Assembly (NCBI GenBank): GCA_020438485.1
Contig: JAGQUM010000040.1
Coordinates: 620 to 38,858 of the forward strand
Direction: 5' to 3'
Origin: Thermoleophilia bacterium
GTDB lineage: Bacteria > Actinomycetota > Thermoleophilia > Miltoncostaeales > Miltoncostaeaceae
DNA: 38,239 nt
Shown: one piece after another, positions 19,273 to 21,125 of the stretch
Layout: each line of letters begins with the position of its first letter
How positions within the stretch are numbered: position 1 is the stretch's first letter
Translations under genes and position numbers: made by a program
The notes under the pieces: model-generated
Databases searched by the model: none
Told to the model about the DNA's origin: nothing
The model's input: only the letters and a program-made list of their open reading frames with translations

Positions 19273-19515
19273 ATGCCGAGCGGTGCGCGACGCCCCACCA
19301 GCTACATGCTGCTGGGCCCCCCTGACATCCTGTTCGACGTCCTGGAGGACTTCGCGGACGTCGGCTGGCGCACGGGGCACGCGGGATGGAAGGCGGTCGT
19401 CACGGCGCCGGCCGAGGAGGACGGCCACGCGGCTCCCGCCTGGCCCGTCGAGGTCACGCTGGTGGAGGTTGTGCGCGAGGGGCACGTGCGGGCGTGCCGG
19501 GAGCACCTCGCCTGA
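19273..19515 (+). CDS. Hypothetical 80-residue protein
   Basis: Unrecognised. It is mixed and mildly acidic, with an N-terminal phrase TSYMLLGPPDILFDVLEDF and a Trp pair (GWRTGHAGWKAVV). Third-position G/C is very high, which supports coding. It is divergent from the 97-residue gene by only 18 bp, and its 3' end overlaps the end of the convergent membrane-protein gene by 62 bp; both weaken the case. No ribosome-binding site is clear before ATG 19273. It may be real, but I hold it loosely. Confidence 0.5.
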   Translation: MPSGARRPTSYMLLGPPDILFDVLEDFADVGWRTGHAGWKAVVTAPAEEDGHAAPAWPVEVTLVEVVREGHVRACREHLA

Positions 19516-20266
19516 GGGCACGCGCCGCGGCCATCACCCACGGGGTCAGCGCCAGGGCCGCCATGTCGAAGAACACGTAGCCGCCCGCGATTCCACTGGG
19601 CGGGTTGCCGTTGGGCACGCCGATGCCCGGCACCTCGGGCAGCCAGAACCACGTGCCCAGCGCCGTGCCGTAGAGCTCGAGGAACGCGACGTACGTGAAC
19701 ACCCCCGCGTAGACGACGCCCGACGGGCTGCGGGTCATGAACGCGGCCAGTATCACGGCGCCGATGGCCCCCGCCACGTCGAGCCGCGGCAGCACCCCCA
19801 GGCCCAGCAGGCCCCAGCCCAGCACGCCGGCCGTCGCGAGCGCCACGAACGGACCGGCGTAGGCGCGCACCAGGCGGGTGTGCGTCAGGCGCAGCCCGAA
19901 CAGGTAAACCATGCCGTGCCCGGGGGGCACGAAGCTGGGCAGGTTGTGGTGGCGGTAGACGTAGGCGCCCCACAGGATCGAGCCGACGATCTCGAAGAAC
20001 GTGGCCACCACCACGACGATCAGCGCCTGGTAGCGCTCGTGCGGCTCCGAAAGCCACAGCAGGCCGGCGAAGATCGTCCACGCGCAGAGCCCCAGCACCG
20101 GCTGCCACCCGAACGCCAGCACCTTGTCGAGCCACAACCCGACCAGCCCCGCGAAGAGGATGACGGCGCACGACCCCCACGCGATCCACTGCCCCCGTCG
20201 ATCGTGAACATTGTGTTGCAGCGCCGCTGCGGGTGCTGGGGCGTGGCAGGTGCTCACCGCGGGCAT
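19454..20266 (-). CDS. Conserved integral membrane protein of unknown function
   Basis: About 270 residues with seven or so hydrophobic helices, beginning at QWIAWGSCAVILFAGLVGL. A motif PPGHGMVYLFGLRL sits in the middle, at a loop/helix junction where a conserved His-containing site is plausible. The C terminus is an Arg/Pro/Ala-rich tail. No transporter or enzyme family is evident to me. The start is either ATG 20266 or GTG 20257; the start region overlaps the putative phoU promoter, and GTG 20257 fits a leaderless start from a TACTAT box at 20265-20270. It is divergent from the PhoU-type gene with an 11-bp gap between ATGs. Confidence 0.78.
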   Translation of the reverse strand: MPAVSTCHAPAPAAALQHNVHDRRGQWIAWGSCAVILFAGLVGLWLDKVLAFGWQPVLGLCAWTIFAGLLWLSEPHERYQALIVVVVATFFEIVGSILWGAYVYRHHNLPSFVPPGHGMVYLFGLRLTHTRLVRAYAGPFVALATAGVLGWGLLGLGVLPRLDVAGAIGAVILAAFMTRSPSGVVYAGVFTYVAFLELYGTALGTWFWLPEVPGIGVPNGNPPSGIAGGYVFFDMAALALTPWVMAAARALRRGAPGTPARAPRAQPPPA

Positions 20267-20271
20267 AGTAT
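20264..20271. promoter_or_regulatory. Near-symmetric -10 element shared by two divergent genes
   Basis: The top strand reads TAGTAT at 20266-20271 and the bottom strand reads TACTAT over 20270-20265. On the plus strand transcription would start about at the phoU-type ATG (20278); on the minus strand near GTG 20257. Both messages would be leaderless. No good -35 is seen on either side. Confidence 0.45.
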
Positions 20272-20277
20272 TGACCC

Positions 20278-20958
20278 ATGTCCGTGACCCGCCTGCACTT
20301 CCAGCAAGAGATCGAGGCCCTGCGCTCGGGGATGCTCGAGATGGCCAGCGTCGTCCTGGCACAGGTCGAGCGCGGCGTCGCCGCGTGGGACGACGTCGAC
20401 CACGCCGCCGCCGAGGCGGTGATCGAGGGCGACGACCGCGTCGACGACCTGTGCGCCGAGCTCGACCAGCGCATCTTCAGCATCCAGATCCTTGAGGCCC
20501 CCGTCGCCACCGACCAGCGGCTGCTGCACGTCGGGCTCATCACCGTCATCGCCCTGGAGCGCGTGGGCGACCTCGCGACGGCCATGGCCCAGTTGGCGCT
20601 CAACGAGACCGCCGGCGACGCGATCCCCCAGATCCAGCTGCTCATCCGCCGCATGAGCGCCCAGGCGGTCGACACGCTGGCACTGGCCATCCAGGCCATC
20701 GCCCGGGGAGAGATCGAGCTGGGCGAGCGCGCGGTCGCCCAGGCGAAGGGCGTGCGCGAGATGCTCGACCAGGTGGTTGCCGCGGTCGGCACGTCCACGG
20801 CGGCCCCCGAGACGCGCACGTGGGCTGCGGCCGCCGTGCTTGTGGCTCGTCACCTCGAGCGAGTCGCCAACAACGGCGCCGAGTTGGGCAGCCGCGTGCG
20901 ATTCCTCGTCACTGGCGAGCCGTTCCAGCGGGCCAACCGGAAGGTCTCGAGCGGCTAG
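20278..20958 (+). CDS. phoU: PhoU-family phosphate uptake/signalling regulator
   Basis: 226 residues, all helical, as two PhoU repeats. PhoU proteins damp the phosphate transporter and PhoR signalling. The first repeat carries ALERVGDLATAMA, matching the family ExxxD metal motif. The second has HLERVANNGAELGSRV with Asn where the usual Asp sits, then FLVTGEP, the usual closing phrase. It starts MSVTRLHFQQEIEALRSGM, matching the family N terminus. No pst or phoR gene is in the window. The stop overlaps by four bases the stop of the convergent 55-residue gene. Confidence 0.92.
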   Translation: MSVTRLHFQQEIEALRSGMLEMASVVLAQVERGVAAWDDVDHAAAEAVIEGDDRVDDLCAELDQRIFSIQILEAPVATDQRLLHVGLITVIALERVGDLATAMAQLALNETAGDAIPQIQLLIRRMSAQAVDTLALAIQAIARGEIELGERAVAQAKGVREMLDQVVAAVGTSTAAPETRTWAAAAVLVARHLERVANNGAELGSRVRFLVTGEPFQRANRKVSSG

Positions 20959-21125
20959 TCCCCCTCGTCGTCCCTGCGGTCGCCGTCGGACTCGTCGGCG
21001 GCCTTCGGGCGGGATGCCTCGTGCTGCTGCTCCAGTTGCTCGAGCCGCTCGAGTGCGGCGAGCGCGTCGTCACCCGCGCCGATGTTCCGGATGCTGGTGC
21101 GTCGATCGCGCTTTGCCTTCGCCAT
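20955..21125 (-). CDS. Small hypothetical protein, 55 residues
   Basis: Start ATG 21125 has a strong ribosome-binding site, GGAGG seven bases upstream, which is the main support. The N terminus is basic (MAKAKRDRRTSIRNIG) and the rest is a probable helix or coiled coil (LAALERLEQLEQQHEAS) with a strongly acidic end (DESDGDRRDDEGD). No domain is recognised. Such a charged small protein could bind RNA or a protein partner; I make no functional claim. It lies downstream of mutY-mutT on the same strand, 41 bases from the mutT stop. Confidence 0.7.
   Translation of the reverse strand: MAKAKRDRRTSIRNIGAGDDALAALERLEQLEQQHEASRPKAADESDGDRRDDEGD

Follow-up and report, generated by a model that had tools for sequence, protein, structure and literature searches.

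Bidirectional promoters with a symmetric -10 element were reportedly described by Warman and colleagues in 2021. The main text of two papers describes such elements as firing in both directions (Warman et al. 2026, PMC12825309; PMC10268837). In the parts of those papers drawn on here, the commonest distance between the two transcription starts is 18 bp in E. coli, where 10 and 23 bp are also common (PMC12825309), and again 18 bp in Salmonella, where -11A of one strand is paired with -7T of the other (PMC10268837). A second relevant body of work concerns leaderless genes, which are stated in part of the text of Zheng et al. (2011, PMC3160421) to be common in Actinobacteria. For M. tuberculosis, passages of Cortes et al. 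(2013, PMC3898074) describe a TANNNT element without a conserved -35 motif, a quarter of genes as leaderless and closely juxtaposed divergent promoters as common.

The locus described here lies in a window (the whole stretch of DNA that was analysed) of 38,239 nucleotides on contig 5 of the 91 contigs of a 2.58 Mb Thermoleophilia genome, with a GC content of ~73% around the locus. We label this genome G000, a second species of the same genus G001 and genomes of the family G0xx. The initial annotation had proposed that a symmetric -10 element is common to two divergent genes, one encoding a PhoU-type regulator and the other a membrane protein. We put the probability that the locus is a bidirectional promoter, with one box and with both genes started at or next to their first codon, at roughly 0.8. 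Its features, as read or predicted, are these:

20265-20271, no strand assigned: ATAGTAT, the symmetric common -10 heptamer (ATANTAT), read directly; ATAATAT stands at the equivalent place in G001.
20266-20271, + strand: predicted -10 hexamer TAGTAT for phoU, 6 bases before the ATG (sequence, genome sample and family loci).
20265-20270, - strand: predicted -10 hexamer of the membrane gene, TACTAT, 7 bases upstream of its GTG (sequence, genome sample and family loci).
20278-20958, + strand: phoU, 226 aa (TIGR02135, PF01895), with transcription predicted to begin at the A of ATG 20278; 26 of 30 loci have TANNNT 6-8 bases upstream of the start.
19454-20257, - strand: gene for a membrane protein of no known family, GTG start, 267 aa, predicted transcript start 20257/20258; the membrane nature is judged from the sequence.
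20258-20277, no strand assigned: 20-bp interval between the start codons, containing both -10 hexamers (19 bp in G001).
20264-20266, - strand: ATG overlapping the -10, rejected as the membrane-gene start because the box encloses it and transcription is predicted to begin downstream of it.

Read directly, the + strand from 20255 to 20280 is CAC-CGCGGGC-ATAGTAT-TGACCC-ATG, in which CAC at 20255-20257 is GTG on the - strand, CAT at 20264-20266 is ATG on the - strand, and 20267-20277 are the 11 bases between the latter and the ATG at 20278-20280 on the + strand. The heptamer had been placed in this 11-bp gap; it is present, but starts two bases ahead of the gap, within the - strand ATG. Its two readings, TAGTAT (20266-20271, +) and TACTAT (20270-20265, -), are offset by one base as first described, and hexamers that overlap on opposite strands, one base out of register, are found in both species of the genus. 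The spacing also fits the proposal that the predicted starts fall at or adjoining start codons, with 6 bases to ATG 20278 and 7 to GTG 20257. A 7-base rule puts transcription starts at 20278 (+) and 20258 (-), at a distance of 20 bp; the predicted spacing is 20-21 bp. For the divergent starts of bidirectional promoters, the range used in the main text of PMC10268837 is 7-25 bp. By eye, no -35 element kept in both species is seen in the + direction and none is seen in the - direction in G000. A missing -35 is normal for this type of promoter and adds no support for a shared box.

How common are starts of this type? In a genome sample of 181 genes, predicted by a simple third-position-GC rule, TANNNT was found 6, 7 and 8 bases before an in-frame ATG or GTG at 10, 5 and 3 sites, respectively, with 0-2 sites at each of the other distances from 0 to 30. 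The motif lies 5-8 bases before the start in 18 of the 181 genes, phoU and the membrane gene included, as against 1-7 for control motifs. Across the family, TANNNT at 6-8 bases is present at the phoU loci listed above (21, 4 and 1 at 6, 7 and 8 bases) and at 24 of 30 membrane-gene loci (6, 9 and 9), seven control A/T motifs of the same shape scoring 0-5 loci. The phoU sample covers 30 of the 35 family genomes in which phoU was matched, and the membrane-gene sample 30 of 38 hits; the phoU set includes eight loci (L023-L030) that are 45-48% identical to phoU here and may represent another PhoU paralogue. The box is absent at 6-8 bases from phoU in G025, G014, G011 and G017, and from the membrane gene in G004, G014, G003, G024, G029 and G016, the last of which has a box at 10 bases. 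A pattern anchored on phoU, found in 6 of 42 family genomes (one of them off the phoU place, and G000 absent), was too strict. No SD-like sequence precedes the start of either gene in G000 or G001. Leaderless starts look to be a family habit of both genes, also where the two are not neighbours, and the family loci and the peak in the genome sample support the earlier prediction that both are leaderless.

In G001, the only other species of the genus among the genomes examined, the locus reads CAC-GACGGC-ATAATAT-GTCGGC-ATG, with 6 bases on either side of the heptamer and the start codons 19 bp apart. The two heptamers differ only at the centre (G to A), the sole base that is free in both hexamers. 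Of the flanking gap bases, 12 can be aligned and 7 of these differ (by eye) between the species, whose PhoU proteins are 76% and membrane proteins 72% identical. Retention of the layout in a second species favours the proposed -10 common to both genes and, on this sequence evidence, we take the compact bidirectional promoter to be most likely real, and conserved across two species of the genus.

Which bases carry this argument depends on the strand. T20266, A20267 and T20271 are explicable by the phoU box alone, and it is A20265, T20269 and A20270, needed by the - direction only, that speak specifically for the membrane gene. Were phoU the sole user of the box, the likeness on the - strand would merely follow from the AT-richness of a -10, and transcription of the membrane gene, with a leader, would come from a promoter inside phoU. 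It is the + strand box that recurs at phoU across the family, and -10 boxes are near-symmetric in general according to the main text of PMC10268837, both of which favour this alternative. We nevertheless consider it unlikely: the three bases needed by the - direction alone are kept in both species; the - start codon keeps a distance of 6 or 7 bases to the box in each of them despite a 16-codon difference in the N-terminus; no SD-like sequence precedes an in-frame - start in either; and a leaderless-type box recurs in front of the membrane gene across the family.

A shared box could also be a chance juxtaposition, without function on the - side, inherited by two sister species. That only two genomes, related by common ancestry, have the shared box is compatible with this, but at the level of divergence given above one would expect an AT island without function to have drifted in a genome with 73% GC. 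The rarity of the arrangement makes chance more improbable still. ATANTAT occurs once in 237,131 bases sampled from the genome (window included), at this locus, TANNNT occurring 175 times on both strands. We searched for the layout as CAYN{5,8}ATANTATN{5,8}RTG, with the reversed pattern as control. In the whole genome there is one site, at this locus, and none for the control; in 20 Mb of first-order Markov sequence the full layout was found 0 times. The layout is present in 9 of the 61 genomes searched. Within the family, for which the search covered 37 of 42 genomes, it is found in two (G000 and G001), once each and both times at the phoU/membrane locus, with the control in 0 of 37. Counting against the shared-box reading, sites with short frames also turn up beyond the family: the other 24 genomes searched have 14 of them, in 7 genomes, as against 5 control sites in 4. 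Of the 15 loci fetched (16 places were listed), two are flanked on either side by a frame of at least 100 codons, these being G000 (226/267) and G001 (228/283). Box and layout together exceed chance expectation, and we regard the chance explanation as very improbable.

The initial annotation had given the distance between divergent ATGs as 11 bp, and the spacing of those codons is right. The likely - strand start is GTG 20257, however, and not ATG 20266, and the start codons are therefore 20 bp apart, not 11. At GTG 20257 the protein opens VST, as it does at 8 of 23 other listed loci (G015, G012, G025, G022, G019, G028, G030 and G035); the opening is V[S/T] at 16 of 24 loci and VPD in G001. 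The frame of the equivalent ATG in G001 closes with a stop after 11 codons (by eye), and the GTG frame is open for 283 codons. In G000 the stretch from GTG 20257 to the first long helix holds no further in-frame ATG, GTG or TTG. Third-position GC from the GTG to the first long helix is 0.77 in G000 and 0.67 in G001, as against 0.92 and 0.93 in the rest of the gene, and in this respect the N-terminal stretch looks less like settled coding sequence. A start at ATG 20266, with transcription from elsewhere, an 11-bp gap and a - strand product that is not leaderless, is in frame and uses what is usually the stronger start codon, but this codon overlaps the -10, has no SD-like sequence and lies upstream of the predicted transcript start, and the early stop in G001 and the agreement of the VST opening with relatives make the idea very improbable.

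How far does the shared box extend? The two genes are divergent neighbours in 12 of 37 family genomes and in 7 of 37 are separated by ~2.2-2.5 kb, measured between matches. In 11 of the 12 divergent pairs the boxes could be compared centre to centre (in the twelfth, G014, neither gene has TANNNT at 4-10 bases). The distance is 1 bp in both species of the genus; the remaining nine pairs have 59, 75, 75, 76, 78, 113, 127, 127 and 183 bp. Outside the genus, then, the gene pair is kept without joint -10 positions, an outcome that the initial annotation had itself named as a refutation of its proposal, and a common box as a general property of the phoU/membrane pair is rejected. Because these nine divergent pairs keep separate boxes, box sharing is a genus-level trait rather than an ancient feature of the pair. 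A tree of the membrane protein (21 rows) groups the genus, with support, with genera g2 and g6, the branching order inside this group not being resolved; the four g2 species have separate boxes. The simplest reading is that two boxes merged in this genus, a direction of change that we infer from these comparisons. We do not favour a single deletion that joined two old promoters: the membrane protein before its anchor residue is not shorter in the two species (37 and 53 residues) than at the other 22 loci whose box lies at 6-8 bases (20-46).

The seven genomes in which the genes lie ~2.2-2.5 kb apart are G006, G015, G012, G025, G011, G008 and G017; in these, by eye, the sequence just upstream of phoU resembles the 3' end of a same-strand gene.

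The assignment of the + strand product to PhoU is sound: PF01895 matches in two stretches with 70.3 bits, well above the cut-off of 23.5, and TIGR02135 matches residues 7-214 with E 3.6e-33, though its 115 bits are under the curated cut-off of 130.25. PstC-type genes above the family cut-off are on contigs 91 and 80, not on the contig of this window. A short frame of 56 codons (MAKAKRDRRTSIRNIG...; 20955-21125, - strand) is convergent with phoU and overlaps its stop, and similar short frames lie downstream of phoU at seven of the relatives' loci that were read in their given orientation (by eye). The partner had been described as a membrane protein of no known family, and it gave no Pfam or NCBIfam match. 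It is hydrophobic, with eight long helices predicted and a model of mean pLDDT 86.9. No sequence match was found in the PDB, and no fold match for the model at E 0.001 or better (best 0.74). Its relatives (n=25) matched five Pfam families, one member each, with a best E of 0.0071. The protein family has an invariant GNPPSG motif and is matched in 37 of 37 family genomes and in many other actinobacterial records. A phoU match lies nearby (flank of at most 3.5 kb) in 14 of 80 membrane-protein loci, these being the best 80 of 101, from named genomes.

How might such a promoter work? On each strand ATANTAT can be read as TANNNT, with a shift of one base between the two readings, and polymerase could seat in either orientation. 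We infer that polymerase with the housekeeping sigma factor would bind the AT island. In the + orientation RNA would run from the A of the phoU ATG, and in the - orientation from the GTG of the membrane gene or one base before; both messages would lack a leader, and ribosomes would load at the 5' start codon. Related genera with the two genes as divergent neighbours have a leaderless-type box for each, 59-183 bp apart, and here the boxes would have become one. Support for this scheme is weakened by the predicted spacing, which is outside the common E. coli values of 18, 10 and 23 bp, and by the occurrence of the shared box in two species only.

Would the two products be mutually exclusive, as originally suggested? 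According to parts of the text of PMC12825309, two polymerases cannot bind at once in E. coli, but at five tested promoters basal firing was too low for interference between the directions, repression being possible once one direction is activated. By analogy, mutual exclusion is plausible for polymerase binding and too strong a term for expression.

The architecture seems to recur beyond this genus. The ATANTAT layout is found in 120 of 396 genomes of the phylum, in which control sites are often present too. Two of 28 fetched phylum loci (one per genome, GC 0.32-0.75), L183 and L184, are flanked on either side by a frame of at least 80 codons. These belong to two genera of another actinobacterial family and have ATACTAT with start codons 7 bases off on both sides (at about position 1503-1527) and frames of 108/334 and 108/345 codons, a ferredoxin and a GNAT acetyltransferase by a Pfam scan of the L183 pair. 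The ferredoxin is presumably FdxA-like. The genes are unrelated to the phoU pair, from which they also differ in that the acetyltransferase frame is open further upstream (135 and 240 codons), and the acetyltransferase start is less sure because of this. Apparently they represent an independent case of the architecture. A strict pattern of ferredoxin start plus TANNNT was found in 1 of 296 phylum genomes, and is too strict to give a frequency.

The 18-bp register, searched for as CAYN{5,8}TANNNTAN{5,8}RTG, has 3 places in this genome as against 5 for its control, and is therefore not enriched. One of these 3 places is at moaC and moaD (identified by Pfam MoaC and ThiS), which are divergent around TANNNTA in both species of the genus, at G000:C87:61952-61977 (L176) and at L207 in G001. 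The moaC box is TAGATTA in G000 and is kept as TAGGTTA in G001, and moaC looks to be of the leaderless type; its start could be placed in 1 of 6 relatives' loci. For moaD the start probably lies further in and is preceded by an SD-like sequence (GAGG in G000, GGGAGGTG in G001, by eye).

A broader view can be offered tentatively. Two leaderless promoters, separate in sister genera, may have merged into one palindromic -10, leaving 20 bp as the core promoter for both genes with the start codons flanking it directly; activating one direction would lower the other and tie PhoU inversely to the membrane protein without a dedicated regulator. Since the architecture is also found with other genes in another actinobacterial family, and in a half-leaderless version at moaC/moaD, this might be a recurrent compression of divergent control in leaderless genomes. 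The contrast across genera between separate leaderless-type boxes and one common box makes a clean test case for the origin of bidirectional promoters, and also for the question whether competition between polymerases links a pair of genes that both lack a leader. A search of titles and abstract openings in the open-access literature found no double-leaderless pair with one common -10.

In comparison with known systems, the locus resembles bidirectional promoters of the E. coli type, as described in the main text of PMC12825309, in having one AT-rich -10 on both strands and predicted starts within ~20 bp. The 18-bp register (TANNNTA), which is the commonest and typical but not a defining one, is not that of the phoU/membrane locus, where the sequence is ATANTAT. 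In the former, with -11A and -7T paired between the strands (PMC10268837, main text), four fixed bases are enough; here the predicted spacing is 20 bp and six fixed A/T bases are needed, because -11A and -7T do not coincide in this register, and in a GC-rich genome the ATANTAT register is the costlier one. Both products here appear to be leaderless, a word that occurs 0 times in the main text of either PMC12825309 or PMC10268837. With the actinobacterial leaderless genes described in parts of PMC3160421 and PMC3898074 the locus has in common a TANNNT a few bases before ATG or GTG, but there the box is described for one gene and here it would serve two. There is also a likeness to prpD (Rv1130)/Rv1129c of M. 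tuberculosis, where a regulator and its neighbour are divergent and both leaderless, a common -10 not being stated in the figure legend (PMC3898074). The phoU locus would join two described phenomena, the symmetric bidirectional -10 and the leaderless gene, in one 20-bp element.
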